Origin: Frigoribacterium faeni
GTDB lineage: Bacteria; Actinomycetota; Actinomycetes; Actinomycetales; Microbacteriaceae
NCBI RefSeq assembly: GCF_007988805.1
Contig: NZ_BJUV01000024.1
Span: 1-42,176, forward strand
Direction of reading: 5' to 3'
Length of the DNA stretch: 42,176 bases
Of the stretch, positions 4,120-16,235 are shown piece by piece. Position 1 is the first letter of the stretch; each line of letters opens with the position of its first letter. Under the pieces are notes generated by a model. That model did not search any database, was not told where the DNA came from, and worked only from the letters and a program-made list of their open reading frames with translations. Both the position numbers and the translations under genes were made by a program.

Positions 4120-5493
4120 TCAGTTTGATGAGATCAACATGACGAAGTTGGACTGGGCGTTCATAAACCTTGCGACTGGGGCGAACATGACGAATTTGCT
4201 GCAGAGGCGGAAGTCCGTGTCGCTTCGCTGATAGCCGGGGTCACCTGTGCAGCTCGTGCTGCCACCAGTGATGCCACTGTTGATCCCGACCCCGTAGGCC
4301 CCCAGCGTGCCGTCGGCTCGCTGCACAATGCCGAAAACGGGTCCGCCGCTGTCGCCGTTACCCACAGCGGGCTGGCCTTGGATCTGCGTGGTTGTGGCAA
4401 TCCAGTAGCACTGGAAGCCGGCGTAGCAGATGTAGGAGCTTGCGCTGGTGACCTCGTTGCCGCACACGAGGCCTGAGAAGGCGCCGCTGTAGCACAGTCG
4501 GTCACCGACGACAGTGTTGGCGTACCCGCGGATGGGTATGCCCGTCGTGGAGTCATTGTTGTTCGTCGTGTAGACGTATGGGTAGACGGCGGAGGCGGTA
4601 CTGCCAAGGAAGACTTCGAGGTCACTTCCCCCGGCGGCTTGGCCGGTCGTCAGGCCGACGTTGATCGGTGCCGTGCCCTGACCTGACGTGCCCCAGGTCC
4701 ACATCGAGTTCAGTGCTTTTCCGCAGTGATCCGCGGAGAGGTTGCCGTAGGTCGTGTCCTGAGCCCGCCGCACCGGCCAGCCCGTTGAGCATGCCGAGCC
4801 TTGACCCGCAAAGTAGCCACCGGTGATCATGGGGGAGGAGTTGCGAACCCGCGTAGTGGGCACGCTCTCGTCGACCTGTTCGAAGGTCACCTCGAGGCCG
4901 TCGACTTCAGAAGGCAGCGGTGCTGCCCTGCGTGCCTGGGTGGGTAGCTCTGTGACGCCCACCGTGAGGCGTGAACCGTCCGATGAAGGCGTCACGCTGA
5001 CCACGTCGCCGAGGCCCTGCGGAGAAGTAGCCAGCGTGGCGACGAAGTTCTCCACGGTCGATTCAAGTTGGGACTTGGTGACGGCTGCGGGGATGTAGTC
5101 GATTTTCTGGTCGGCAGGGAACAGCCCTGTTGCGTCTGCCGCGGCTGCTACCGCTTCGATGTCGTGGGTGAAGATGCTGAGGCCGGCGTCGTCGTGGTTC
5201 CACTTGAATTCAAGAATCTCGTTGTCGAGGCTCGAATGGGAAAGTACAGAGATTGCCTCGCGCGTCTCCTCTGGGATGGGACTTCCACCCCCTGCCGGCA
5301 TCTCGGTCAGGGTCGTAAGACCCTCTGGGGCACCAGGCATCTCCGCTACGTTCGCGGTCGACTCGGCTGCCTCATCTGCTGAGGCCATGCTGACCGGCAG
5401 CATGACGCCTGCCGCGACTCCGGCGCTGAGGCAAAGTGCGCCGAGACGCCTTCCCCTCCGCTTTCCTTGCTTCTTTGCCGTGCTGTTTCTCAT
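4120..5493 (-). CDS. Secreted S1-family (chymotrypsin-fold) serine protease
   Basis: 457 aa. A basic N-terminus (KKQGKRRGRRLG) and hydrophobic stretch end in SMASA-D at about 39, a Sec signal peptide with possible signal peptidase I site. Residues about 45-220 are a pro-region. The catalytic domain runs from about 222: H256 in LSADHCG, D291 in GGSDLEVF, S382 in GNGDSGGPVF, a complete triad. Cysteine pairs in CSTGW/DHC, CYSG/VCG and CYAGFQC suggest disulfides, as in secreted alpha-lytic-like and Streptomyces proteases. AGGAGA precedes the ATG by 4 bases. Single gene, convergent with the small membrane protein. The coding strand is noticeably less GC-rich than core genes here, and a recombinase remnant lies just upstream, which together suggest acquisition. 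Confidence 0.9.
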   Translation of the reverse strand: MRNSTAKKQGKRRGRRLGALCLSAGVAAGVMLPVSMASADEAAESTANVAEMPGAPEGLTTLTEMPAGGGSPIPEETREAISVLSHSSLDNEILEFKWNHDDAGLSIFTHDIEAVAAAADATGLFPADQKIDYIPAAVTKSQLESTVENFVATLATSPQGLGDVVSVTPSSDGSRLTVGVTELPTQARRAAPLPSEVDGLEVTFEQVDESVPTTRVRNSSPMITGGYFAGQGSACSTGWPVRRAQDTTYGNLSADHCGKALNSMWTWGTSGQGTAPINVGLTTGQAAGGSDLEVFLGSTASAVYPYVYTTNNNDSTTGIPIRGYANTVVGDRLCYSGAFSGLVCGNEVTSASSYICYAGFQCYWIATTTQIQGQPAVGNGDSGGPVFGIVQRADGTLGAYGVGINSGITGGSTSCTGDPGYQRSDTDFRLCSKFVMFAPVARFMNAQSNFVMLISSN

Positions 5494-5668: not shown

Positions 5669-6165
5669 ACGCCCCAAGCTGATCGCACGTGCGTGTTGAC
5701 CACGGTCTCTCGGGAACGACTCGAGCCCGGCCGGGGCTTCGTGAGGCGCTGGCCGCGTGCCGGGCCGGCGACGTGCTTGTCGTCACGAAGCTCGACCGCC
5801 TCGCGCGTTCACTCCGGGACGCGACGGACATCGCGGATGAGCTGACGGAGAAGGGTGTCGCTCTGAACCTTGGGGGAGCGGTCTACGACCCTACTGACCC
5901 CGTCGGCCGACTGCTGTTCAACGTCCTCGGCATGGTCGCCGAGTTCGAGGCCGACCTGATCCGTGCGCGAACCAGGGAAGGCATGGCGATCGCGAAGGCC
6001 GCCGGCAAGCTTCGCGGCCGCAAGCCCAAGCTCACCGCCTCGCAGGAGAAGCACCTCGTGCAGCTGCACCGAACCGGCGCCCACACTACGAGCGAGATCG
6101 CTGAGCTTTTCGGGGTCGCCCGCTCGACCGTCTACCGCGCGATCCAGCGAGCGGAGCAGGCCTAG
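5669..6165 (+). pseudogene. Serine recombinase (resolvase/invertase) remnant, N-terminus lost and frameshifted
   Basis: The 159-residue readable part (from GTG 5689) matches the second half of the resolvase catalytic domain: VDHGLSGTTRARPGLREAL, LVVTKLDRLARSL, LGGAVYDPTDPVGRLLFNVL, EFEADLIRARTREGM, then a helix-turn-helix (TTSEIAELFGVARSTVYRAI). Intact relatives start about 40 residues earlier with the motif YARVSTxxQ that carries the nucleophilic serine; it is absent. In the adjacent frame, codons 5675-5694 read QADRTCV, which is what should precede VDHG, so a 2-base GT gain at about 5690-5695 (TGCGTGTTGAC for an expected TGCGTTGAC) has shifted the frame. Upstream of about 5665 no homology remains. 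It cannot catalyse recombination as it stands; the DNA-binding part could still be made. Confidence 0.82.
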
Positions 6166-6259: not shown

Positions 6260-7282
6260 TCAATCGTCTTGGCTGTGTGCTGGCGAGTCAGGACTAGGAG
6301 CGGCGTAAGTTGCGTTTGCAACTCGGCCACCACTGCGGCGGGGTAATAGCCCCTCGCTCCAACCCGTGAGGTGGCCAGCCATCGCGTCGAGCGCCTGATA
6401 TGCCTCAAAGAGGCTCGACCCAATAACCGGGTACTTGTCACCGTGCTTTAGGGCCGCGAGATCGAGCTCGCGCTGCAAGAGCTCGAGCTCGGGCCGTGTG
6501 TCGAACTTCCCCATGGCCTCATGGAGAAGAAAATGCACCATCCCGCGAGTGATCGGGCGTCCTGATTCCGGGTGCCTTGACTCGTCTTCACGTTCCGGGA
6601 GGCGAATGTACAGCTCGCGCCAAATAACTGCGAATGGTGTGAACTTTGGCGAATCAGGGATCGCGGTGTAGTCACCGTGCTTGATGCGCCAGCGTCGTCT
6701 CCAGCTCGACTTCTGGGGTCGCTTGGTACGTCCAGCGACGCTCACGAAGCCGCGGAGGGCCAGTTGTTTTTTCGGCGCTTCTTCCAGGAGTCGAGGAATG
6801 ACGCTCCAGTAGTCGAGAAGGAACGTTACGCGTCCATAGGACTCCAACCGCACCACTGAGTCCATAACCGCCCGGTCGGGACCGAACGTATCCTCGGTCT
6901 CGAACATCCTCGGCGTCAGCGTATGCCGGCGCTTGCCATGACCGCTGATTGCGAGGCCAGGGGAGTAGATAGTGACGGGGACCCGGCCGGGGTTTTCGAC
7001 TACGAGCTGGGCCAGCTCCAGAGCGCGGCCCCGCGTAACACTCGCCACGCCGTGTTCTTCCGTGAAGGAGAAGCGGCCCGTACGCATGGTTGCGACCATG
7101 AACTCCGGCTCAAGTACGGCGACGTTCAGGTAGACCTTGACTCGGCCGCCATCGAGGAAGTGCTTCGTTACTTGCCAACCCAGCGCGACCATGGCGATCC
7201 CAAAGCTCAAGAGGGAGACGAACAGCGCCCACGTAGCGGTCGGCAAGCCGAATAGTTCTGGAGCGGGAGGCGTCAGGGGCAC
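6260..7282 (-). CDS. Hypothetical protein with one N-terminal membrane helix
   Basis: 340 aa from GTG 7282, which has GGGAG 9 bases upstream; a longer frame to 7357 lacks such a site. After VPLTPPAPELFGLPTATW comes one hydrophobic helix (about 15-37, ALFVSLLSFGIAMVALGWQV), then a soluble domain of about 300 residues, probably cytoplasmic because the following residues are basic. The first part has a beta-rich look (VKVYLNVAVLEPEFMV, LAQLVVENPGRVPVTIYSPG) like single-helix proteins of unknown function found in many genomes near defence or mobile genes. The C-terminus contains LFEAYQALDAMAGHLTGW. No family or catalytic motif is recognised. Composition is less GC-rich than core genes and the gene stands alone. 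Confidence 0.65.
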   Translation of the reverse strand: MPLTPPAPELFGLPTATWALFVSLLSFGIAMVALGWQVTKHFLDGGRVKVYLNVAVLEPEFMVATMRTGRFSFTEEHGVASVTRGRALELAQLVVENPGRVPVTIYSPGLAISGHGKRRHTLTPRMFETEDTFGPDRAVMDSVVRLESYGRVTFLLDYWSVIPRLLEEAPKKQLALRGFVSVAGRTKRPQKSSWRRRWRIKHGDYTAIPDSPKFTPFAVIWRELYIRLPEREDESRHPESGRPITRGMVHFLLHEAMGKFDTRPELELLQRELDLAALKHGDKYPVIGSSLFEAYQALDAMAGHLTGWSEGLLPRRSGGRVANATYAAPSPDSPAHSQDD

Positions 7283-7590
7283 GCCCTGATACTCCCATCT
7301 CGTTCGACCAATGTGTCCGCAGTGAGGATGCGCTTCGTGCCTTAGGCGCCGCCACAAGACGCCTCACGACCAATTGGCGAGTTCACGGCTGTCTTCTCGG
7401 TGGTTGGTGTCTCCTCCTGTCGTCATGAAGGACTTCCCCTTCCCGGCGCCGCCCCGGAGACGACTGCCGCGAGCCCATCGCGCGCACGTAAATCGCTCCG
7501 CAAGCGCCCGATAGCCGATCCTCAACTGGTCACGCGTTCAAGGCGAGGAGACTTGAGTCTGACGTTGTGTGAGGCTTTACGGTCTCGGCT
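7283..7590. other. 308-bp divergent gap with one copy of the 26-bp repeat
   Basis: Between two divergent genes. It holds repeat copy A (7506-7531) and the -10 box TACGGT (7578-7583) placed 7 bases before the DUF2268 ATG. Short open frames here have no ribosome site or recognisable product; one ends with TAG inside the repeat and may be a gene remnant. Confidence 0.5.
7506..7531. repeat. 26-bp near-palindromic repeat, copy A
   Basis: Begins GCCCGATAGCCGATC and ends ACTGGTC. It matches copy F (13019-13044) at 23 of 26 positions. No intact gene ends in this copy, although TAG lies at repeat positions 7-9 as in the other copies. Confidence 0.8.
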
Positions 7591-8478
7591 ATGACGATCA
7601 CGGTCCTTGACACGTCCCGCGGTATGGCCGAGCTGCTGGCGACGCCCGCCCCGAAGCAGGCCGACGTGCTCCGCGAGATGCTCGCGCCCATGGCGGGGAT
7701 GTTCCGCTGGTTTCCCGTCGATGTCGACCTGGTGGCCATGCACACGGCGAGTTTCGGCTTCTCCCTCGATGCCCCGCCGGTCGAGATCCGCTGGGCGCTG
7801 GACCAGCTCCGTGCCGCTGATGCGTGGCAGCGGATCGAACGGGCGCTGAACGAGGCCCTCGAGATGCAGTCGCTCACGGTTCCAGGCCTCGAGGTTCCCG
7901 ACGTGACGGTCCTGCTGATGGTGGGCGATGCTAGCGACGACTATTTCGTCGGTCCCGCGCGCGGCTTCAGCGGCAACGGGAGCGTGCCCGGTTTCATCAC
8001 GCTGACACTGTGGCCGACAGCGGAAAACCTCGATCGTTTAGAAGCGGCCGCCGTTCACGAACTGCACCACAACCTGCGGTACTCCCCAGGAGGCGTCGTC
8101 TGGGACCCGGTGACTGTCCGGGTCGGTGAGCAGATCGTGTCCGAGGGCCTCGCCGACGCGTTCGCGCGCCAGCTCTACGGTGAGGTCGGCTACACGCCTC
8201 TAGGGCGGCCCCATCTCGACGATGATGGGGTCCTGCGTCGCGTCGTCGAGGGTCTCAATGTGACCGGGATGCAGGAGTTCGTCGCGTGGGTCCACGGCGA
8301 CACAGCAGCGCAGAGGTTCGGGGCGACGCCGGTGGGCCTGCCGACGGGGGCCGGTTACGCCGTCGGCAACCGCATCGTCGACGCCTATCTCGTATCGACG
8401 AGGACCACGGCTGCTGATGCGTTGCACGTACCGGCGAGCACGATCATCGAGATCGGAGTCGCGCGATTGATCGGCTGA
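7591..8478 (+). CDS. DUF2268-family putative zinc-dependent protease
   Basis: 295 aa. Residues about 100-290 match the DUF2268 pattern: zinc motif H156-E157-L-H-H160 in AAAVHELHHNLRYS and a likely third ligand E185 in SEGLADAFARQLYG. No signal peptide or membrane segment, so cytoplasmic. The ATG is 7 bases after a -10-like TACGGT, consistent with a leaderless transcript. It is convergent with a MerR-TipAS regulator (30-bp gap); DUF2268 proteins and MerR-type effector-binding regulators often occur together, suggesting a linked role, but the physiological substrate is unknown. Start choice is supported by the promoter spacing and by MTITVLDTSRGM being a usual N-terminus. Confidence 0.85.
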   Translation: MTITVLDTSRGMAELLATPAPKQADVLREMLAPMAGMFRWFPVDVDLVAMHTASFGFSLDAPPVEIRWALDQLRAADAWQRIERALNEALEMQSLTVPGLEVPDVTVLLMVGDASDDYFVGPARGFSGNGSVPGFITLTLWPTAENLDRLEAAAVHELHHNLRYSPGGVVWDPVTVRVGEQIVSEGLADAFARQLYGEVGYTPLGRPHLDDDGVLRRVVEGLNVTGMQEFVAWVHGDTAAQRFGATPVGLPTGAGYAVGNRIVDAYLVSTRTTAADALHVPASTIIEIGVARLIG

Positions 8479-8508
8479 GGAGCACACGAGGACAGCGAGG
8501 TGCCAAGA

Positions 8509-9312
8509 TCACTCCCACCGCGCCTCGTCGGGCTCCACTCCGTGCTGGCGCGCGGCCTCCTCGGCAGCCAGCCGGAGCCACGCGCCGAGGCCCTGCTGAA
8601 TGCCCTCGTGGTACTCGACGAACCCGGGCTCGTCGGTGAACCGTCTCGTGATGAGCACGTGCATCGACGGGCTGCAGGTGAAGTACCCGCTCATGGCGGA
8701 CCGGTGACGCTCCGCGGCCTGCACGCCAGCCGGGCTCCGTGGATCGACGCCGGCCCGCATAGCCTCGGCCGCTGCTCCCGTCGCTTCCGTCACGGCCAGG
8801 GTCACGGCATGCCAGTCCTCCGCAGTGCGATCGGCGGACCGCTCGGCCCATTCTTCCCACTGGGGTGAGTCACCCCATAGGGCTCGCGCCTCGGCGGTCC
8901 TGCTCGGATCCCACCCGCTCCCGAGCGCGTGGGCTCGTTCGTTCGCGTCGACTAGGGGGCCGTGCTCGTCCGCGACGAGGAGGCGATCGAGACCAGCAGC
9001 GGCCTCCCGGAGTTCGTCGGCCCTTGAGATCACGGAGGCTCGGTGCAGCTCAAGCCGTCGGCGTCGGCCGTCAGAGTCCCCGTCCAGCAAGGCTCTGACG
9101 TCGTCCAAGGTCATGCCCAGCTGCCGGTATCGCTGCACACGACGGACCCTGTCAACGTCCAACGGAAGATAAACGCGATACCCGGCTGCTGTCCGACCTG
9201 AGGCACTCGCGATGCCCTCCGCATCCCAGTGATGCAAGGTGCGGACAGTGAGACCAGTCGCCTTAGACACCGCCCCGACGAGCTCGCCGATTCTCGCGTC
9301 CTCAGATTTCAT
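8509..9312 (-). CDS. MerR-family transcriptional regulator with TipAS-like domain
   Basis: 267 aa from ATG 9312; a TTG at 9336 is possible. Residues about 7-75 are the MerR winged helix: VSKATGLTVRTLHHWDAEGI, GYRVYLPLDVDRVRRVQRYR, LGMTLDDVRALLDGD. A coiled dimerisation helix follows (about 82-115). The C-terminal half (about 120-260) is the TipAS ligand domain, with WEEWAERSADRTAEDWHAVT and MHVLITRRFTDEPGFVEYHE. TipAS-type regulators bind peptide antibiotics or other ligands and activate transporters or resistance genes. Here the nearest partners are the convergent DUF2268 gene and the RidA gene upstream; neither is an obvious transporter. Lacking a clear ribosome site. Confidence 0.9.
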   Translation of the reverse strand: MKSEDARIGELVGAVSKATGLTVRTLHHWDAEGIASASGRTAAGYRVYLPLDVDRVRRVQRYRQLGMTLDDVRALLDGDSDGRRRRLELHRASVISRADELREAAAGLDRLLVADEHGPLVDANERAHALGSGWDPSRTAEARALWGDSPQWEEWAERSADRTAEDWHAVTLAVTEATGAAAEAMRAGVDPRSPAGVQAAERHRSAMSGYFTCSPSMHVLITRRFTDEPGFVEYHEGIQQGLGAWLRLAAEEAARQHGVEPDEARWE

Positions 9313-9407
9313 GCGAACAGGCTCGCACGGACTCAAGTGGGCGGGCGAACAGAGAACGTAGGGGACATCCTGAGCCGCCTTACCTGCGATGCCATTCTGT
9401 CGAGGCA

Positions 9408-9433
9408 GCCCGGTAGGGGATTGGCTACCGGGC
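9408..9433. repeat. 26-bp palindromic repeat, copy B (perfect arms)
   Basis: GCCCGGTAG (9408-9416) and CTACCGGGC (9425-9433) are exact complements around GGGATTGG. It lies downstream of the RidA gene and upstream of the MerR gene. An unassigned forward frame ends with the TAG at 9414-9416, the same place in the repeat where real genes end in copies D and G. Confidence 0.85.
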
Positions 9434-9564
9434 GTATCGAGGCAGAGACCTGCCAGTGGTCGCCCCGCGCGTTAGCCCGGACGTCGGGGTCTAGGCCGCC
9501 GTCATGTTTTCTTCGGACAGGAAGGCAGTCGGCATCGTCGAGAAGTCGTCGTGGTCGCTGCTCA

Positions 9565-9969
9565 TCAGCGCGGTGATCGGGCCGCGATCGGCTCGATCTC
9601 CACGAGCTGCCCCGGGTAGCCAAGCACCGGAACGCCTTGCAGGGTCACGGGGACCTCGTGATCTCCGAAGTGCTCCCGCACGACCACCCAAGCGGCGCCC
9701 AACTGCTCCGGTTCGGTGGCGACTACCAACACGCGAAGGAAGGCGACATCCTCGAGCCCAACGCGGCAGCGACTCAACACCTCATCCATGTTTGCGAGGG
9801 CCTGTCGAGTCTGTGCGGCTATGTCATCGCGCGCGACAACTAGGCCGTTCCGATCGAGCGGACAAGCACCGGAGAGGAAAATGACTTCTTGGTCAGCGGG
9901 GACGATCGCCGCGTCGGCGTACTCGGCGTGATTGAGCAGGGGCGAACGGATCAGACGCACATTGGTCAT
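9565..9969 (-). CDS. RidA/YjgF/UK114-family protein
   Basis: 134 aa, full length for the family. Seen: ADAAIVPADQEVIFLSGACP near the start, QTRQALANMDEVLSRCRVGL in the middle helix, VAFLRVLVVATEPEQLGAAW and the C-terminal VTLQGVPVLGYPGQLVEIEP. RidA members are cytoplasmic trimers that hydrolyse reactive enamine/imine intermediates; the family also has members without deaminase activity. The arginine of FLRVLVV is at the position of the catalytic arginine in RidA proper, so deaminase activity is plausible. The ATG at 9969 is 7 bases after TATCGT (9977-9982 on the complement), a leaderless arrangement. Single gene flanked by repeat copies B and C. Confidence 0.88.
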   Translation of the reverse strand: MTNVRLIRSPLLNHAEYADAAIVPADQEVIFLSGACPLDRNGLVVARDDIAAQTRQALANMDEVLSRCRVGLEDVAFLRVLVVATEPEQLGAAWVVVREHFGDHEVPVTLQGVPVLGYPGQLVEIEPIAARSPR

Positions 9970-10106
9970 GGCTCCGACGATACCTACGCCCGAACCGCCT
10001 GATGCAGGGCAGGCCGCTCAGGAGGCCAGACGGCCGACTCATAACCCGGCCCGTCCGAAACACCCTCCTGAACCGACTGGCTTTCCGGACCAGCGACTGA
10101 ATTGGC

Positions 10107-10132
10107 GCCCGATAGTCGATGGTCTAGCGCGC
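10107..10132. repeat. 26-bp repeat, copy C (most diverged)
   Basis: GCCCGATAGTCGATGG then TCTAGCGCGC. The left half keeps the family sequence; the right half has drifted. It is located between the RidA gene start and a small forward gene. Confidence 0.65.
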
Positions 10133-10160
10133 CGTACGAGATGCCTGGCAGGGTCGCGCC

Positions 10161-10379
10161 ATGACTACTGGACGTCGTGGCTTGTCGCTGGCGTCGCGTG
10201 TGCCGTGTCTTCTGGCGTACGCGAGTGACGTTGACTTGGTCAGCGGCTGCGTGGAGGGCGAGGGAAGCATCGGTGAGGTCAGGGGGCTGACCTTTGTCGT
10301 CCTTCCCGACGGTGCACCCGTTCCCGACGATGTTGACCGGGTCTGGGACAACGTCTTCGTGCGCAAGCAATCCCAATAG
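10161..10379 (+). CDS. Small hypothetical protein ending inside a repeat
   Basis: 72 aa from ATG 10161 to TAG 10377-10379. No signal peptide; the middle is acidic (EGEGSIGEV, PDDVDRVWDNV). No family recognised. The ribosome site is weak (GGCAGGGT about 9 bases upstream). What supports it as a gene is that its stop codon falls at positions 7-9 of repeat copy D, exactly as in the gene at 13562-13738. A chance frame cannot be excluded. Confidence 0.42.
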   Translation: MTTGRRGLSLASRVPCLLAYASDVDLVSGCVEGEGSIGEVRGLTFVVLPDGAPVPDDVDRVWDNVFVRKQSQ

Positions 10380-10396
10380 GGGATTGGATATCGGGA
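10371..10396. repeat. 26-bp near-palindromic repeat, copy D, containing a stop codon
   Basis: TCCCAATAGGGGATTGG then ATATCGGGA. TAG at 10377-10379 is the stop of the forward gene, and the lipoprotein gene on the other strand ends 24 bases further. Position between two convergent gene ends would also suit a bidirectional terminator. Confidence 0.82.
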
Positions 10397-10419
10397 ATCA
10401 TCGCTCTGAGTTTCCGTGT

Positions 10420-10935
10420 CTAGGGCTTCATGGCCACTTGGCGGTAGGCGCTGTAAAGGGTGTCGACGTAGTCGGGGCACTCGGCCGAGCTGCCCCGCGT
10501 GTGACCCTCGGGGTTCGCCGTGAGGGTCATGCAAGCGACGAGGGCGCGTGTGTCCGAGCCGAACAGTCCGACACTGCCGGTGCTCTGATCAGCTATGAGG
10601 AAGGACACCGACACGACCCCCTGCTCGTCGGTGCTCACGTCGTAGACGACGCTCGTGGGAGGGCCGAGGGGAGAGTCGCTGGCCGGTTCGGCGCCGTCGA
10701 GCGCGAGGTCCGTGTACAGCTCGCCCGCTCGTATTCGCTGCTCGGTCGAGTCTCCGGTGGGGTCGTCGCCGATGTACTCCAGGTAGCTCCGCACCTGTTC
10801 CGCACGCTCTTCGATCTTGCCCTTGACGGTGTGATCGACCGAAGCGGCGCAACTCGTGCACGCTGCGGCAAGCACGAGGGTCACGGCGCCGGCGCCGGCC
10901 ATGCGGACAGCTGACCTGGGGACGAATCGGCTCAT
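10420..10935 (-). CDS. Putative secreted lipoprotein of unknown function
   Basis: 171 aa. Residues 1-25 have a basic start (MSRFVPRSAVR) and a hydrophobic core (MAGAGAVTLVLAAAC) ending at a cysteine at about 26, a lipoprotein-type signal though the lipobox (AAAC) is not ideal; two further cysteines follow closely (TSCAAS). The mature part has an amphipathic helix (KIEERAEQVRSYLEYIGDD) and then beta-rich sequence (TSVVYDVSTDEQGVVSVSFL). Late cysteines in LVACMTL and SAECPDY may pair. No domain recognised. Similar small lipoproteins of unknown role occur twice more in this region. Upstream there is no strong ribosome site. Confidence 0.65.
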   Translation of the reverse strand: MSRFVPRSAVRMAGAGAVTLVLAAACTSCAASVDHTVKGKIEERAEQVRSYLEYIGDDPTGDSTEQRIRAGELYTDLALDGAEPASDSPLGPPTSVVYDVSTDEQGVVSVSFLIADQSTGSVGLFGSDTRALVACMTLTANPEGHTRGSSAECPDYVDTLYSAYRQVAMKP

Positions 10936-11184
10936 GAGTCATCACCGTGGACCACCGACCGGACTCGGTCAACGTGACGTGACTGCGGCCCGACCACCTC
11001 TCGTCGGCACCGTCATTCGCGGACTAGGGACGGAAGACACCGTCAGCTACGGAGCGAGCGTTGATCGGCGGCCCCATGGAGCTCGATCGAAGGGCTGCGC
11101 AAAGGTGCACGTGAGACGAGGGGTTGACGCGAGCACGCGTGCGATCGGCTTGACGTGAGTCGACAGGCGGGAGAGTGTGGAGCC

Positions 11185-11385
11185 ATGGACTCCGATGACG
11201 GCCGAAGCGTGAGGCGTTCAGTATCGCTGTTCTTGTTGATCATCGCGTCGCTCGTGGCCATCGCTGCGGTGACGCTCCTCGTTCTGGATGCGTCACGAAC
11301 GGGCATGTACTTCACGTTGGCCGGCGCCTTGATCACGGTCTATCTCAACGCCCGAAACCTGAAGCGGGGCCAGGCTACCCGGTAG
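11185..11385 (+). CDS. Small two-helix membrane protein
   Basis: 66 aa from ATG 11185, preceded by GGGAGAG and GGAG. Two hydrophobic helices: about 13-35 (VSLFLLIIASLVAIAAVTLL) and 41-57 (GMYFTLAGALITVYLN), with a basic tail (NARNLKRGQATR). Topology with a cytoplasmic C-terminus is likely. No family recognised. A longer start at 11155 adds ten residues without better support. No 26-bp repeat lies at its 3' end. Confidence 0.55.
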   Translation: MDSDDGRSVRRSVSLFLLIIASLVAIAAVTLLVLDASRTGMYFTLAGALITVYLNARNLKRGQATR

Positions 11386-11563
11386 ACGATGGCTTATCGA
11401 GATGGGCCTCTGCGATGTAGGACCTCGCGGCCGAAAGCTGCCGACGCCCCCGCGCAAAGAGGATGCCCGCGCCGTTCCTGAAGTCGGTCGCCCAGGTAAG
11501 AAGGGCGTTGAGGTCTTCCTCTTGCATCGGAAGTCGGCCTCGCGGGCTTGGTCGAAACCGGTA

Positions 11564-11971
11564 CTAGTCGGGGCGTCCGTTCTGGGGTTCGTCAGTCGGG
11601 ACCAGGACATCTCCGACCAGGACATCTGTGTTGCAGTCGAAGGGGCCGGCGGTGGCAGGGCGCGAGATCTGCCACCAGCGCCGGTCGAAGCGTTCACACA
11701 CGACGCTGGTGATGTCGCCGGCGACGGCGACGTATTCAAGGGTGCCGTCCGGGTTTTTCGTGAGTGTCCCGGCCGCACCTTCTCGCTCACCTAGATCGAC
11801 GATGGGCCCCGTCGTCGGGGTCGATGTAGGAAGCGCATCAGTCGCAATCGACGGTGTTCCTGGACTCGAGGACGTAGCAGGCGGTGGTACTGCATTGCTC
11901 GTGCACGAAGCGGATGCGAGCACGAGGGCCGCGGCGAGTACGGGCGTCACGAGCCAGGGACGAACCTTCAT
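11564..11971 (-). CDS. Putative secreted lipoprotein of unknown function
   Basis: 135 aa from ATG 11971, chosen because it begins a clean signal sequence (MKVRPWLVTPVLAAALVLAS) ending at the cysteine of ASASCTSN, and because TATTCT (complement of 11978-11983) lies 6 bases upstream, giving a leaderless start. Residues about 24-60 are a Ser/Thr/Pro linker typical of surface lipoproteins. The remaining about 75 residues include GTLTKNPDGTLEYVAVAGDI and a cysteine pair (VVCERFDRRWW, FDCNTDV). No family recognised. Confidence 0.65.
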   Translation of the reverse strand: MKVRPWLVTPVLAAALVLASASCTSNAVPPPATSSSPGTPSIATDALPTSTPTTGPIVDLGEREGAAGTLTKNPDGTLEYVAVAGDITSVVCERFDRRWWQISRPATAGPFDCNTDVLVGDVLVPTDEPQNGRPD

Positions 11972-11977
11972 CTGATG

Positions 11978-11983
11978 AGAATA
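11978..11983 (-). promoter_or_regulatory. -10 box TATTCT for the lipoprotein gene
   Basis: TATTCT on the minus strand ends 6 bases before ATG 11971, implying a leaderless transcript. No convincing -35 box is seen. Confidence 0.5.
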
Positions 11984-12097
11984 AGTCACTCCAGGTCGTT
12001 GGAGAGCTCCCGGCACGCAACGGCGCCGAGCATCCGGTGGCGGCCAGAGGTCAGCCACTGACCATGCAACCTCTTCGTCTAAGAGCGTCCGGGTGCG

Positions 12098-12123
12098 TCC
12101 CGATAGCCGATCGCTGACCGGTC
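12098..12123. repeat. 26-bp repeat, copy E, overlapping a second palindrome
   Basis: TCCCGATAGCCGATCGCTGA then CCGGTC. The right half is rebuilt as a perfect 14-bp palindrome GCTGACCGGTCAGC (12113-12126). The TGA stop of the membrane protein on the minus strand (12122-12124) falls in it. Confidence 0.8.
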
Positions 12124-12952
12124 AGCGGTCGTGATCTCGTCGAAGGCCGTCGATCACGGTTGCCGTGTCGTCGGCTGCGAAACGCAGCTCCGTCACACGG
12201 TGGGCCGTGGAGCGGGGCGAGGCGTTCAGGCGAACCGAGGCCGGTGCGCTGAGGGTGACCGCGATGTTGCATCCGGCGAGGGTCGCTATGCGCGCGGTCG
12301 TCCCCTCGACTGCCGGCGTCGTCGTCGTCCCGTCACGATGCACGCGGGCCGAGGCGATGTCCTTGCGGGGCACCGTCGCGACCACGTGGCGGCCAGTGCG
12401 GATGACGAGGTCGGTCTCGGTCAGGTAATGCGGGTGCTGCCACCTGACCGCCACGAAACCGAGTAACAAGACGACACCGTAGACACTCAGCGCCGTCAGC
12501 GCTGTGGCGAGAGCCGGGTACGGGAGAACGAGATGGAGCACGGTGATCTCGACGCCGCTCGCCACGACGAAGGCCGCCGGGAGAACCGCCGTCCCGCTCT
12601 TCGCAGGCACAGGCAGCGCGCCGACCGGAACTGTCGGAGGTCGTCGCTGCACCACCCACGCCAGTGCTCGAAGCGCCGCGACCTCGTGTCCGATGGCACG
12701 CGCGACGGGAGCAGGCGGGAGCGCTCGAGCGATCCGCTGCCAGCCAGCCCGGACGGGTTCACTCCGGCGGCGGAGGATGAGCCCGGTCACGAGCAACGTC
12801 ATCCACAGAAGATCGAGCTCGAGCAGGAGCAGCACGAAACTGACCTCGCCGTGCCCCGTCGACCTCGCCGCGATCACGGACGCCGCCGTCATGGCCATCA
12901 GGATGAGTCCGCACCTGGCGGCTCGACCACCCGTGACAGCTGCTCCTTGCAT
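12122..12952 (-). CDS. Hypothetical membrane protein with four helices and a C-terminal PH-like region
   Basis: 276 aa. Helices at about 12-30 (CGLILMAMTAASVIAA), 37-60 (VSFVLLLLELDLLWMTLLVT), 122-141 (AVLPAAFVVASGVEITVLHL) and 147-168 (ALATALTALSVYGVVLLLGF). From about 175 the sequence YLTETDLVIRTGRHVVATVP resembles the beta-strands of bacterial PH-like (DUF2244/DUF304-type) domains that follow a helix pair, then KDIASARVHRD. Function unknown. The ATG is 6 bases after TAGTCT (complement of 12959-12964): leaderless. Its stop codon lies in repeat copy E. Confidence 0.72.
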   Translation of the reverse strand: MQGAAVTGGRAARCGLILMAMTAASVIAARSTGHGEVSFVLLLLELDLLWMTLLVTGLILRRRSEPVRAGWQRIARALPPAPVARAIGHEVAALRALAWVVQRRPPTVPVGALPVPAKSGTAVLPAAFVVASGVEITVLHLVLPYPALATALTALSVYGVVLLLGFVAVRWQHPHYLTETDLVIRTGRHVVATVPRKDIASARVHRDGTTTTPAVEGTTARIATLAGCNIAVTLSAPASVRLNASPRSTAHRVTELRFAADDTATVIDGLRRDHDR

Positions 12953-12958
12953 GCCATC

Positions 12959-12964
12959 AGACTA
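12959..12964 (-). promoter_or_regulatory. -10 box TAGTCT for the four-helix membrane protein
   Basis: TAGTCT on the minus strand, 6 bases before ATG 12952, matching the leaderless pattern of neighbouring genes. Confidence 0.5.
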
Positions 12965-13018
12965 GGAAGCAAGACACCGTGGCGCATCCCCAGCACGAGC
13001 TAGATCTCCCCGAAAAGT

Positions 13019-13044
13019 GCCCGATAGCCGATCGGCTACTGGTC
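13019..13044. repeat. 26-bp repeat, copy F, containing a stop codon
   Basis: GCCCGATAGCCGATCGGC then TACTGGTC. The inner 14 bp TAGCCGATCGGCTA (13025-13038) are a perfect palindrome. The TAG stop of the minus-strand gene (13036-13038) is at positions 7-9 of the repeat read in that gene's direction. Confidence 0.88.
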
Positions 13045-13476
13045 GTCGGGGTCCGGGTAAGAACCGAGATCGATCGTCGCTCGTTTGCCCTCGTTGTCTG
13101 TGGCAGTGATGTCGAGCGAGGCACTTCCGTCTGGGGTGGAAGTGGTCAAGAACACCAAGGTGCTGAGTTGGTCGGTCGTTGTGACGGTGACGTCGGCGGG
13201 GTCGATCGTCCCGAAGGTGTTCGCGATGGTGCGGACGTCAGACATCGTGTATTCGAATCCCGGTGTCACGTAGCGGCAGACGTCATGAGTGTCCGACGCG
13301 TCCCTGGAGGCCGAGATCAACGCCCTCAGGGCTGCTTCGGAGGTGTGGACCCCGCGGCCGCAACTCTTCGACTGAACGGCGACGATGGTGGCGCCGACGA
13401 GGACCACCGAACCTGCCAGTGCTGCCCAACGAAGGCCCGCGCGTAGAGCCGGGGAAACGGTATCCGCAGGGTTCAT
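13036..13476 (-). CDS. Hypothetical membrane-anchored/secreted small protein
   Basis: 146 aa from ATG 13476. A basic-hydrophobic N-terminus (RAGLRWAALAGSVVLVGATI, about 12-31) anchors it; the rest is outside. The mature part contains SEAALRALISASRDASDTHD, VCRYVTPGFEYTMSDVRTIA and a beta-rich end (VTVTTTDQLSTLVFLTTST; ASLDITATDNEGKRATIDL). Cysteines at SKSCGR and DVCRY may pair. The fold recalls small NTF2-like lipoproteins but I cannot assign it. TACGTT (complement of 13484-13489) is 7 bases upstream: leaderless. The stop codon lies inside repeat copy F. It is divergent from the small membrane protein at 13562. Confidence 0.65.
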   Translation of the reverse strand: MNPADTVSPALRAGLRWAALAGSVVLVGATIVAVQSKSCGRGVHTSEAALRALISASRDASDTHDVCRYVTPGFEYTMSDVRTIANTFGTIDPADVTVTTTDQLSTLVFLTTSTPDGSASLDITATDNEGKRATIDLGSYPDPDDQ

Positions 13477-13483
13477 GGTGATG

Positions 13484-13555
13484 AACGTAGCGGTATGCCT
13501 GCCCTGTCTCGTTAGGCCATCCTCGACCGGCACCGTAGTTTCGGATGGTTAGCCT
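13484..13555. promoter_or_regulatory. Divergent leaderless promoters
   Basis: TACGTT on the minus strand (13489-13484) ends 7 bases before ATG 13476; TAGCCT on the plus strand (13550-13555) ends 6 bases before ATG 13562. Both genes would be transcribed from their start codons. Confidence 0.5.
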
Positions 13556-13561
13556 TGATTG

Positions 13562-13738
13562 ATGATGTCTCAGCTCAGTCAGCTTGCCGGGCTCACCGCC
13601 GGTCTCTCGATCCTGACCTCGTTCCTGGTGGTCATCGTCTTGGCGTTGGGCGCATACGCCCTCGTCCTCACGATCAGAGTTCTTCGATCGCGACTCGAGC
13701 AGGACGGCTCGATGCAGAGCGGTGACGATTCCCGATAG
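13562..13738 (+). CDS. Very small single-helix membrane protein ending inside a repeat
   Basis: 58 aa from ATG 13562 (a second ATG follows at once). Residues about 10-40 form a long hydrophobic helix (GLTAGLSILTSFLVVIVLAL followed by GAYALVLTI), then a basic segment (RVLRSRLEQ) and a polar tail ending DDSR. Single-pass, cytoplasmic basic side. TAGCCT at 13550-13555 is 6 bases before the ATG. TAG 13736-13738 sits at positions 7-9 of repeat copy G, the same place as in copies D and F. No family recognised. The codons GTG GTC ATC GTC show normal GC-rich third positions, supporting coding. Confidence 0.6.
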   Translation: MMSQLSQLAGLTAGLSILTSFLVVIVLALGAYALVLTIRVLRSRLEQDGSMQSGDDSR

Positions 13739-13755
13739 GGGATCGCCGTGCGGGA
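13730..13755. repeat. 26-bp repeat, copy G, containing a stop codon
   Basis: TCCCGATAGGGGATCG then CCGTGCGGGA. It matches copy D at 20 of 26 positions and keeps the terminal TCCC/GGGA complement. It is the right-most copy; the NmrA-type gene of the next block ends 12 bases further. Confidence 0.8.
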
Positions 13756-13766
13756 CGGCAGGTGAC

Positions 13767-14633
13767 CTAGTGGGTGGTCGTGATGGGCTGCGCGGCGAGC
13801 AGGTCGCGGACGGAGCGTGGCTCGCGACCGAGGATCTCGCCCAGCAGGGGGTCGGTGCCGGCGAAGAACCCGCCGGCGGCGGCGTGGTACATGTCGAGCA
13901 TGAAGCGTGCCATGAACTCCGGCTGCCCCGACGACACCTGCTGCGCGACCCAGTCGTCGTCGCCGAGCACCACGGTCTCGACCGGTCGCCCCGCGACGTC
14001 GGCAGCGATCGCTGCGACGTCCGCGAACGTGGGAGCCGCGGGTGCGGTCAGGGTCGTCGGCCCGTCGTAGTCGCCGTCCGAGAGCAGGATGCGCGCGGCA
14101 GCCTCGGCCGCATCTTCGCGAGCCGTCCACGACACAGGCCCGTCGGCAGGCACCGTGATGACGCCCGTCGTGCTCCAGTCTCCGAGGAACCAGGTCAGGC
14201 TGTGCGCGTAGAAGCCATTGCGGAGCGAGGTCCAGGGCAGTCCCGACTCGGCGAGGAGATGCTCGGTCGCTTCGTGGTCGCGACCCGGCCCGAAGGGCGT
14301 GTCCCGGGCCGCCCCTTGGTGGCTCGTGTAGAGGACGCGGCCGACGCCCGCCTCCACCGCGGCCTCGACCGCGTTGCGGTGGAGCGCGACGGCGTCGGCC
14401 TGCGGGTCGCTCGCCGAGACGAGGAGGAGCTGATCGGCTTCCGCGAAGGCGGCAGGCAGGGACGCGCGATCGGCGTAATCGCCGGTCCGCACCTCGACTC
14501 CTCGGCTCGCGAATGTGGCGGCCTTCGCGGCGTCGCGGGCGACGATGGCGATCTCGGACGCCGGAAGGGTCTTGAGGAGGTGGTCGACGGTGGAACCGTT
14601 GAGGGCGCCGGTAGCGCCGGTGACGATGATCAT
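13767..14633 (-). CDS. NAD(P)H-binding NmrA/SDR-family oxidoreductase (YtfG-like)
   Basis: 288 aa. The N-terminal Rossmann motif is VTGATGALNGSTVDHLL (residues 4-20) with IAIVARDAAKA binding the phosphate side; RVLYTSHQGAARDTPFGPG and SGLPWTSLRNGFYAHSLTWF match the quinone oxidoreductase-2/NmrA-like branch. It lacks the classical YxxxK pair, usual for this branch. Likely a cytoplasmic NADPH-dependent quinone or redox-sensing reductase. GAGAGG lies 8 bases before the ATG. It is divergent from a TetR regulator over an inverted repeat, so it is probably the regulated target. The minus-strand promoter TTGCTA, 18 bases, TAACAT overlaps the repeat. Confidence 0.88.
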   Translation of the reverse strand: MIIVTGATGALNGSTVDHLLKTLPASEIAIVARDAAKAATFASRGVEVRTGDYADRASLPAAFAEADQLLLVSASDPQADAVALHRNAVEAAVEAGVGRVLYTSHQGAARDTPFGPGRDHEATEHLLAESGLPWTSLRNGFYAHSLTWFLGDWSTTGVITVPADGPVSWTAREDAAEAAARILLSDGDYDGPTTLTAPAAPTFADVAAIAADVAGRPVETVVLGDDDWVAQQVSSGQPEFMARFMLDMYHAAAGGFFAGTDPLLGEILGREPRSVRDLLAAQPITTTH

Positions 14634-14683
14634 AGGAAGGGCCTCTCGTTGGAACGTGGATGGGATATCTGCGGAACTCGAAA

Positions 14684-14728
14684 GATGTTATCGCTGGTAT
14701 CACGCTGATAGCAAGAGGTGGCTATCGT
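14684..14728. promoter_or_regulatory. Divergent promoter with TetR-type inverted repeat
   Basis: GATAGC (14707-14712) and GCTATC (14721-14726) are exact complements. The left arm is part of the minus-strand -35 (TTGCTA) of the oxidoreductase; the right arm overlaps the plus-strand -10 TATCGT (14723-14728) of the TetR gene, which ends 7 bases before GTG 14736. A further GTATCACGC half-like site lies at 14697-14705. Binding here would block both promoters, as usual for TetR autoregulation. Confidence 0.6.
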
Positions 14729-14735
14729 TGATCTC

Positions 14736-15458
14736 GTGACTGATCCGACCGTTCCCGCCGACACCCGGACGCGCATCGTCGAGGTCGCAGCCCGGTTCCT
14801 CCGGGAGGAGGGCCCTGGGGCTGTCACGACGCGAGGCGTCGCCCAGGCCGCCGGTGTCCAGGCCCCCGCGATCTACCGGCTCTTCGGCGACAAGGACGGA
14901 CTGCTCGAGGCTGTCGCCGAGCACGTCATGTCGTCTTTCGTCGCGGCCAAGGCGTCGACCGTGGCCGCCGCCGCCGAGGCTGACCTCGACCCCGTGGAGG
15001 AGCTCGGCGACGGGTGGCGTCGTCAGATCGAGTTCGGGCTCGAGAACCCGGCTCTCTTCGCCCTCCTCAGCGACCCGCGTCGTGTCGCGGGCTCGCCCGC
15101 TGCCCGCCTGGGCGTGGAGGTCCTGGCGGCTCGAGTCCGCCGGGTCGCCGCCGCCGGGCGCCTCGCCGTGCCGGAGGTACGAGCGGTTGGGCTCATCCAG
15201 GCGGGGGGCGTGGGCGTCGTCACGACGATCCTCGCCACTCCTCCCGCCGAGCGCGATCCCGGACTGGCAGATGCCGTGTTCGAGGGCGTCCTGGCCCAGA
15301 TCCTGACGGACGCCCCCGCGGCGGCCCGGTCAGGTCACGTGGCCGCAGCCGTCGCGTTCCGCGCCGTCGCTCCCGATCTCGAACAGCTGAGCGGCGCCGA
15401 GCGACGCCTCCTCAGGGAATGGCTCGACCGGATCATCTCCGAGCCGCCCGCCCGCTAG
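14736..15458 (+). CDS. TetR/AcrR-family transcriptional regulator
   Basis: 240 aa from GTG 14736, chosen because the upstream -10 box is 7 bases away; GTG 14718 is possible but would put coding sequence in the operator. The DNA-binding domain (about 8-55) is clear: TRTRIVEVAARFLREEGPGA, TTRGVAQAAGVQAPAIYRLF, GDKDGLLEAVAEHVM. The C-terminal all-alpha domain (about 75-235) holds the ligand pocket and dimer face. Divergent from the NmrA-type reductase, which it probably represses. The gene ends EPPAR-TAG; the same reading frame continues directly into a GAF-ANTAR coding region. Confidence 0.9.
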   Translation: MTDPTVPADTRTRIVEVAARFLREEGPGAVTTRGVAQAAGVQAPAIYRLFGDKDGLLEAVAEHVMSSFVAAKASTVAAAAEADLDPVEELGDGWRRQIEFGLENPALFALLSDPRRVAGSPAARLGVEVLAARVRRVAAAGRLAVPEVRAVGLIQAGGVGVVTTILATPPAERDPGLADAVFEGVLAQILTDAPAAARSGHVAAAVAFRAVAPDLEQLSGAERRLLREWLDRIISEPPAR

Positions 15459-16235
15459 GGGGCCGCCCAGCGGACAGGACAGCTCGTCGACGCGTTCGTC
15501 GCCGTCGCCGACAGCCTCGTCCGCGACTACGACCTCATCGATCTGCTGCAGTCCCTCGTCGACCGGTCCATCGGCCTGTTCGACGCCTCGGCCGCCGGCA
15601 TCGTCCTCACGAGCGCGTCCGACGGGTACGAGGTCGTGGCGTCGACGAGCGAGAGGAGCCAGTTCGTCGGCCTCATGCAGCTGCGCGCCGACGAGGGCCC
15701 CTGCGTGGAGGCCATCACGACCGGACGCGTCGTGTCGGTCGAGTCGCCCGGCGAGATCCGCTCCCGCTGGCCCCTGTTCGCCTCCGCTTCGGAGGGCCTC
15801 GGATTCGTCGCCGTCCACGCCATCCCCCTCCGTCTGCGCGATGAGACGATCGGCTCGCTGAACCTCTTCCGCGACCGTCAGGGTCCGATGAACGACGACG
15901 ACGCGGTGGCCGCCCAGGCGCTGGCGGATGTGGCGACGATCAGCATCCTGCAGGAGCGGACCGTCTCCGACCTGTCCGTCACGCAGCAGCAGCTGCAGCG
16001 GGCTCTCGACAGCAGGGTGCTCATCGAGCAGGCCAAGGGCGTCGTCGCCCACACCCACGACCTCGACATGGAGACCGCCTACCGGCTCATCCGGCACCGT
16101 GCGCGGACCACCCAGACGAAGATCGCCGAACTCGCCCGCTCGATCGTCGAGGACGGTCTCAGGCTCGAGCTCACCGAGCCGCCGCAGGCTGGCAGAACGC
16201 CGACCGGGCGGCGGCCGCACGTGTCCGAGGGCTAA
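15459..16235 (+). CDS. GAF-ANTAR antitermination regulator coding region without a normal start codon
   Basis: From the codon after the TetR stop (15456-15458), in the same frame, 258 codons encode an N-terminal GAF domain (QLVDAFVAVADSLVRDYDLI, IDLLQSLVDRSIGLFDASAA, RADEGPCVEAITTGRVVSVE, FVAVHAIPLRLRDETIGSLN) and a C-terminal ANTAR domain (LQRALDSRVLIEQAKGVVAH, TAYRLIRHRARTTQTKIAEL). ANTAR domains bind RNA hairpins and prevent termination. Relatives normally start just before the QLVDAF segment, but no ATG, GTG or TTG lies in frame between 15459 and 15635; the first is GTG 15636, which would delete about 59 residues of the GAF core. So either a rare start codon, readthrough of TAG, a mutated start, or a truncated product is used. 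The reading of the domain is certain; the start is not. Confidence 0.82.
   Translation, partial: GAAQRTGQLVDAFVAVADSLVRDYDLIDLLQSLVDRSIGLFDASAAGIVLTSASDGYEVVASTSERSQFVGLMQLRADEGPCVEAITTGRVVSVESPGEIRSRWPLFASASEGLGFVAVHAIPLRLRDETIGSLNLFRDRQGPMNDDDAVAAQALADVATISILQERTVSDLSVTQQQLQRALDSRVLIEQAKGVVAHTHDLDMETAYRLIRHRARTTQTKIAELARSIVEDGLRLELTEPPQAGRTPTGRRPHVSEG

Follow-up and report, generated by a model that had tools for sequence, protein, structure and literature searches.

Probable crossover sites on contig C24

The DNA analysed here (the window) is the entire contig C24 of the Frigoribacterium faeni genome, 42,176 bp. It carries an array of 26-bp near-palindromes behind a truncated recombinase gene. 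From the comparisons described below, we propose that these 26-mers are very probably the double-stranded crossover sites of a gene-cassette system run by a small serine recombinase. The gene at the array head (5686-6165, plus strand) lacks roughly residues 1-30 of the protein, including the catalytic serine; it starts at residue 29-31 and is 97-98% identical to residues 29/31-188 of a second copy on contig C26, which is intact. Activity in the window, if any, would therefore depend on an intact copy in another place, for instance the one on C26. A first-pass annotation had placed seven copies of the repeat at 7506, 9408, 10107, 10371, 12098, 13019 and 13730, and all seven are real and lie exactly there. 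Numbered along the array, and all on the plus strand, they are site 1 (7506-7531, copy A of that annotation), site 2 (9408-9433), site 3 (10107-10132), site 4 (10371-10396), site 6 (12098-12123), site 7 (13019-13044) and site 9 (13730-13755), each supported by sequence match and by a weight matrix. Three further plus-strand copies had been overlooked: site 5 (11377-11402), found by the matrix, whose left half is a cassette end in common with locus L092; site 8 (13507-13532), found by the matrix and by locus comparison; and a degenerate site at the far end of the array (15450-15475), recognized by the matrix and by a homology boundary at its centre. Past this last site, at about 15480, chromosome-like DNA starts again.

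No copy matches exactly the 26-mer pattern first given for the family (5, 1, 5, 2, 4, 2 and 4 mismatches in coordinate order). Across the seven copies conservation is good in the left half (CCCGATAG..GAT), which reads CCCGATAGnnGAT, and loose in the right half, so that only three copies are recovered within three mismatches (9408, 10371 and 13019; none in 100 shuffles); the same search of the whole genome adds three places outside the window. A left-half search and the weight matrix are more sensitive; the matrix was refined on fetched loci, and its training partly used loci counted afterwards. At a score of at least 15 it reports nine sites in the window, every one between 7506 and 13730. The statement that all copies occupy a single stretch thus holds for the window but not for the genome, as contig C26 carries a second array, its copies almost all in one orientation. 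The proposal that the repeats supply stop codons holds for the plus-strand genes ending at 10379, 11385, 13738 and 15458, whose TAG occupies repeat positions 7-9. The same class had been taken to include the gene ending at 13036, which lies on the minus strand and stops at the mirror-image position. Genes can end in a site because the TAG belongs to the conserved half-site, and the stop codon falls within the repeat because cassettes end at the crossover site.

Sites are present in all 16 examined genomes of Frigoribacterium, a plant-associated environmental genus of the family Microbacteriaceae. At a score of at least 14 we counted 476 over 55 loci of these genomes, loci that had been picked around site matches or recombinases; with overlaps between loci removed, 463 distinct sites remain in 941,405 bp, against seven in the reversed sequences. 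Exact matches to KCCCGATAGnnGATCG are present in all 10 Frigoribacterium genomes drawn; among 388 other genomes of the family, 24 contain the pattern, mostly once. A control pattern gave one occurrence among all 398 genomes.

Homology breaks at the central dinucleotide

Where do homologous segments end? In an all-against-all BLAST of 33 Frigoribacterium loci (519 high-scoring segment pairs; those below 120 bp, or above 3 kb at 99.5% identity or more, were dropped), 322 of 1002 segment ends are no more than 20 bp from a site centre, compared with 11 for random points, and 55 pairs have both ends at site centres. We then compared 174 site pairs, drawn from 264 sites and selected for homology on one side only. 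Across them, identity drops from 0.91 to 0.26 at the central AT. A single family of 97-bp elements accounts for 70 of these pairs; in the 104 that remain after its removal, differing bases number 64 at position 10, 13 at position 12, six at position 13, four at position 14 and eight at position 15. Homology breaks at one dinucleotide, with nothing homologous past the 26 bp.

Gain and loss of gene-plus-repeat blocks between genomes, which the first-pass annotation had envisaged, was borne out by locus comparison. A 465-bp block that codes for an AHSA1-family protein runs from site centre to site centre in L244 (genome G398) and is missing in L243 (genome G399), where the flanks match at 99.7% over 1549 bp and 99.8% over 4142 bp; the single site of L243 consists of the outer halves of both L244 sites, joined at AT. 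A less clean case is a 223-bp cassette present in L079 and not in L246, which carries a relative of a 58-aa peptide encoded in the window; here one flank is 99.9% identical over 4408 bp, the other just 83.5% over 758 bp. Of 24 insertion/deletion-type differences, 11, some of them near-duplicates from related genomes, start and end no more than 20 bp from site centres. Genome comparison shows that whole blocks are gained and lost and turn up in different neighbourhoods, and it places the point of exchange at the central AT. Because blocks break at the repeat centre and are gained or lost whole, we read the repeats as crossover sites of mobile cassettes, and the early suggestion of something mobile or recombinogenic that has spread together with small genes was correct.

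The recombinase and its upstream region

In its full-length form the array-head protein has 189 aa, with Resolvase (PF00239) and HTH_7 (PF02796) domains both above cut-off. Its nearest solved structures are DNA invertases (4m6f, 3uj3), followed by gamma-delta resolvase; the alignment to 4m6f runs through the STxxQ and KLDRLxRS stretches, and the NCBIfam matches, XisF and Mpi, are both far under their cut-offs. By sequence, then, the enzyme belongs to the small serine recombinases. It is found in 16 of 16 Frigoribacterium genomes, and its 15 compared copies share 97.4% residue identity with only 63.8% identity at fourfold-degenerate sites, which argues for strong selection on recombinase function. 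The sites lie to one side of it: across 21 recombinase loci, 186,927 bp of downstream DNA contain 123 sites and 200,062 bp of upstream DNA five, the head site described below excluded, and at least one downstream site is present at 19 of the 21. We infer that the 189-aa small serine recombinase is the enzyme that carries out cassette exchange. The Tn3 transposase (PF01526) had no match in any of the 16 Frigoribacterium genomes. Decayed fragments of further Resolvase-family genes lie at C26:25257-25743, beside the intact array head and a gene that by eye resembles dnaB.

A copy of the palindrome lies about 143 bp upstream of the recombinase start codon at 18 of 21 loci (for example C26:22648-22673), and also before several recombinase relatives, down to about 72% identity. 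This head site is followed by a conserved stretch in which two direct half-site-like CCCGCAAAAATGCCCGGTGA repeats can be discerned by eye. These repeats may be comparable to site II of the Sin resolvase, a regulatory site with head-to-tail motifs (PMC2428073). We also considered a second breakpoint after the recombinase stop codon and rejected it; synonymous sites vary widely, and lost constraint explains the loss of homology there. As lost constraint can end homology, less weight can be placed on the boundary at the head site than on those of the cassettes.

Array organization and cargo

To describe the cargo we took 21 recombinase-headed arrays with 144 sites and a simple gene caller; the longest stretches may hide missed sites or chromosomal DNA. 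The 123 site-to-site stretches have a median length of 620 bp, and 34 contain no called gene, 56 contain one and 33 more than one. Genes run along the array direction (78) and against it (84). Proteins are diverse: among 88 scanned, each Pfam family was matched by at most three, and the cargo includes GNAT acetyltransferases, oxidoreductases, HAD hydrolases, regulators and one aminoglycoside/hydroxyurea-kinase-like protein. Scans of the same 88 proteins for defence genes gave eight families with one member apiece.

The palindromic form of the repeats, their place at some gene ends and the stop codons that they give would also suit intrinsic terminators, or palindromes like the repetitive extragenic palindromic elements, that act as a hotspot of homologous recombination. 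We regard this as exceedingly improbable. Terminator calls number two in the 9 kb from 7000 to 16000, against 2.5 in shuffles, with none at a copy, and over the 144 sites the complementarity between the two halves of a site is no greater than that between halves re-paired across sites. Such halves are expected if each belongs to a different cassette, and unexpected for a hairpin. Moreover, only 24 of 162 called cassette genes (10 forward, 14 reverse) stop at the half-site TAG, and a break at a single dinucleotide with no homology beyond the repeat does not fit homologous recombination. The idea of a terminator family, also raised in the first-pass annotation, is therefore unsupported.

With a matrix trained on the other arrays, site orientation agrees with that of the recombinase in 121 of 144 cases. 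Of 104 pairs of common cassettes, 99 lie the same way round with respect to the array, a figure that is partly circular as array direction was taken from site asymmetry. This bears on another reading, a DNA-inversion switch of the shufflon or Min type that flips pieces without capturing genes. DNA invertases are the best structural matches of the enzyme, the AT overlap is symmetric, which makes inversion chemically possible, and cassette genes do point both ways. Nevertheless, such a switch is very unlikely given the orientation kept by common cassettes (with the circularity just stated), near-identical stretches that differ by gain or loss and not by inversion, and cargo that varies between genomes.

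A 97-bp mini-cassette with no called open reading frame is found, well conserved, in many arrays, and 10 of the 123 stretches measure 96-97 bp. Seventeen examples were listed in all, among them L082:13415-13537, L093:9097-9219, L094:14176-14395 and C26:19864-19986. It occurs once as a tandem pair (L094), and its second site is often reverse in asymmetry. Its predicted fold shows little covariation (3 of 19 pairs).

Cassettes and neighbouring genes in the window

Nine cassettes, all in plus orientation, can be delimited in the window; the extents of the first two were inferred from site centres. Cassette 1 (7519-9420) contains a DUF2268 Zn-protease gene (7591-8478, plus) and a MerR/TipAS regulator (8509-9336, minus), and cassette 2 (9421-10119) a RidA/L-PSP protein (9565-9969, minus). 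Cassette 3 (10120-10383) holds a 72-aa reading frame (10161-10379, plus) with its TAG in the next site; it is known from translation only and was missed by the gene caller. In cassette 4 (10384-11389) a secreted-like small protein (10420-10935, minus), which has a look-alike on contig C26 by eye, is followed by a membrane-like small protein that ends in the next site (11385, plus). Cassette 5 (11390-12110) contains a small protein gene (11564-11971, minus, start picked by eye) and cassette 6 (12111-13031) a membrane-like protein (12122-12952, minus). Cassette 7 (13032-13519) encodes a small protein (13036-13476, minus, start picked by eye) and is held in common with L110 from site to site (13019-13507) at 87.6% identity. 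Cassette 8 (13520-13742) encodes the 58-aa membrane-like peptide (13562-13738, plus), and the entire block (13507-13730) recurs in L079, L091 and L092. Cassette 9 (13743-15462) comprises an NmrA-like oxidoreductase (13767-14633, minus) and a TetR regulator (14736-15458, plus); the block runs site to site in L184 and L185, and its homology stops at the midpoint of the degenerate copy at 15450. L183 and L186 hold relatives of the gene pair, at 88% and 79% identity, whose boundaries have no site scoring 13 or more, and on this comparison such a site-free pair may be the source of a cassette of this kind.

None of the loci compared has an empty site between counterparts of both flanks of the window array; array-free relatives are available for the right flank only (L179 and L180). 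L179 has a single site (13515-13540), the only one at score 13 along 16 kb, accompanied by a relative of a window-cassette gene (74% over 257 bp). Outside the array, a 457-aa open reading frame at 4120-5493 (minus) has a GDSGGPV motif, which we take to be trypsin-like; it has no Pfam match at E<=0.01. Rfam at gathering thresholds returned zero matches in the window.

Distribution outside Frigoribacterium and contrary observations

The recombinase and sites also occur on plasmids, L229 (NZ_CP043651.1) of Frigoribacterium sp. NBH87 and L230 (NZ_CP126280.1) of Curtobacterium sp. MCBD17_035, and plasmids are a possible vehicle of the system between species. In Curtobacterium, L118:12353-12980 is a block between two site centres whose left part is the 3' third of a recombinase gene; it starts within that gene, at an AT with a suitable half-site after it. 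The matching segment in Frigoribacterium, L235:911-1534 (88% over 629 bp), comprises the normal end of an intact recombinase gene and the DNA that follows. We rejected the block as a plain common cassette, given the gene fragment at its left and the fact that only one end in L235 is a site; from these alignments it looks like a newborn cassette, made by exchange at a chance site within the recombinase gene. A sequence-only model was run on 394 genomes of the class (312 with a match at E<=1, 19 candidates per genome scored); no class-wide distribution was drawn from it.

A number of observations weigh against a cassette system run by this enzyme. Within Frigoribacterium, the evidence on excision and insertion is genome comparison throughout; the window copy of the recombinase is without its catalytic N-terminus; 13 of the 24 insertion/deletion-type differences do not have both ends at site centres; and 23 of 144 array sites are without the expected orientation asymmetry. 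The head site raises a further difficulty, since its centre is GT in 20 of 20 Frigoribacterium head sites scored and in 45 of 56 overall, compared with AT in cassette sites. A GT centre recombined with an AT centre is expected to give mismatched bases; the head site may accordingly have a role in regulation or resolution and may not be where cassettes enter. Either one enzyme has two classes of crossover site or the head site is regulatory. Beyond the genus the arrangement is less regular: sites lie upstream of the recombinase at 10 Arthrobacter-group loci, and Curtobacterium is mixed, with sites mainly downstream in L118, L121 and L123 and mainly upstream in L117, L124, L125 and plasmid D35 of Curtobacterium MCBD17_035. 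Exchange could be followed there in few homologous pairs (three from 111 sites, one from 52). Lastly, two genomes of another genus, G031 and G379 (L086-L088), have dense arrays of the same site and no intact recombinase relative; Resolvase matches are absent from G031 and limited to a fragment in G379.

These two genomes would be easier to understand if another enzyme, a tyrosine recombinase of Xer-like or integron type, made the exchange and the serine recombinase were a mere passenger. To our knowledge, the cassette systems known are integrons and Xer-type modules, both based on tyrosine recombinases, which points the same way. We nonetheless consider a passenger role unlikely. The exchange point is about 2 bp wide, a signature of serine recombinases, whereas tyrosine recombinases exchange 6-8 bp; four tyrosine recombinases (PF00589) were found in a scan of the F. 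faeni genome itself, none of them on contigs C24, C26 or C14; and in many genera the serine recombinase is preceded, at a distance of about 145 bp, by the same palindrome.

Proposed mechanism and comparison with known systems

Based on these observations, we favour exchange by the small serine recombinase, along the following lines. Each site would consist of two recombinase half-sites around the AT dinucleotide, and a cassette would be the block from one AT to the next, usually with zero to two small genes in either orientation. At AT the recombinase would make staggered cuts, 2 bp apart, in both strands and swap half-sites. Recombination between two adjacent sites would excise the cassette as a circle, whose single site could recombine with another site and so insert the cassette. 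As the genes point both ways, cassettes would bring their own promoters. AT is self-complementary, and the kept orientation must therefore come from elsewhere.

The array organization resembles that of integrons: small exchangeable cassettes delimited by sites, one site per cassette, lie by a recombinase gene, stop codons may fall in the site and orientation is kept. Integron arrays without an integrase are also known. The differences concern the enzyme, a serine recombinase here and the tyrosine integrase IntI there; the genes, which run in both directions here; and the sites, which lack paired arms (144 sites), unlike the folded single-stranded attC. attC and attI share the core GTTRRRY with crossover after its first base (PMC8876359), whereas the present element is a 26-bp near-palindrome exchanged at AT. 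Site composition and exchange point thus confirm the initial view that these are not integron attC sites. The system works like an integron yet is none, since it differs from integrons in enzyme class, site core and site structure.

The small serine resolvases (Tn3/gamma-delta, Sin and beta) share with our enzyme the Resolvase and HTH_7 domains, a palindromic crossover site and a 2-bp stagger. The resolvases known act on copies of a single res site, in contrast to the hundreds of crossover-only sites that bound diverse cargo here. Resolvases cut site I leaving 2-nt 3' overhangs (PMC2428073), which matches the 2-bp exchange point mapped here by comparison. The small serine DNA invertases (Gin, Hin, Min and Mpi) provide the closest solved structures, but they flip fixed segments, whereas the blocks described here are gained and lost, mostly in one orientation. 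Invertase sites are about 26 bp long, and Min and Mpi have several of them. In the pdif modules of Acinetobacter, short XerC/XerD sites bound small mobile gene modules; the two arms of an Xer site are unlike and flank a 6-bp spacer, in contrast to the two like half-sites and 2-bp exchange of the present system. We found no description of serine-recombinase cassette arrays in the literature as covered by titles and abstract openings, which left out preprints and most subscription papers. The use of small serine recombinases to delimit many exchangeable cassettes appears to be the new aspect, short of proven novelty.

Implications for Frigoribacterium and the small serine recombinases

What would such a system mean for these bacteria? 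We think it likely that the arrays constitute an independently evolved analogue of integrons, built on a small serine recombinase: a genus-wide capture platform of Frigoribacterium with several arrays per genome and a 2-bp double-strand exchange, and with relatives on plasmids and chromosomes that include those of Curtobacterium and Arthrobacter. If so, it would represent a second, unrelated solution to gene-cassette capture, one that uses plain double-stranded 26-bp sites, and it would explain the assortment of small accessory genes in these actinobacteria. The sites would be a marker for finding many unannotated cassettes, and the system a compact tool for building DNA arrays. It would also make testable how a family known for strict resolution and inversion came to manage an exchangeable stock of genes.

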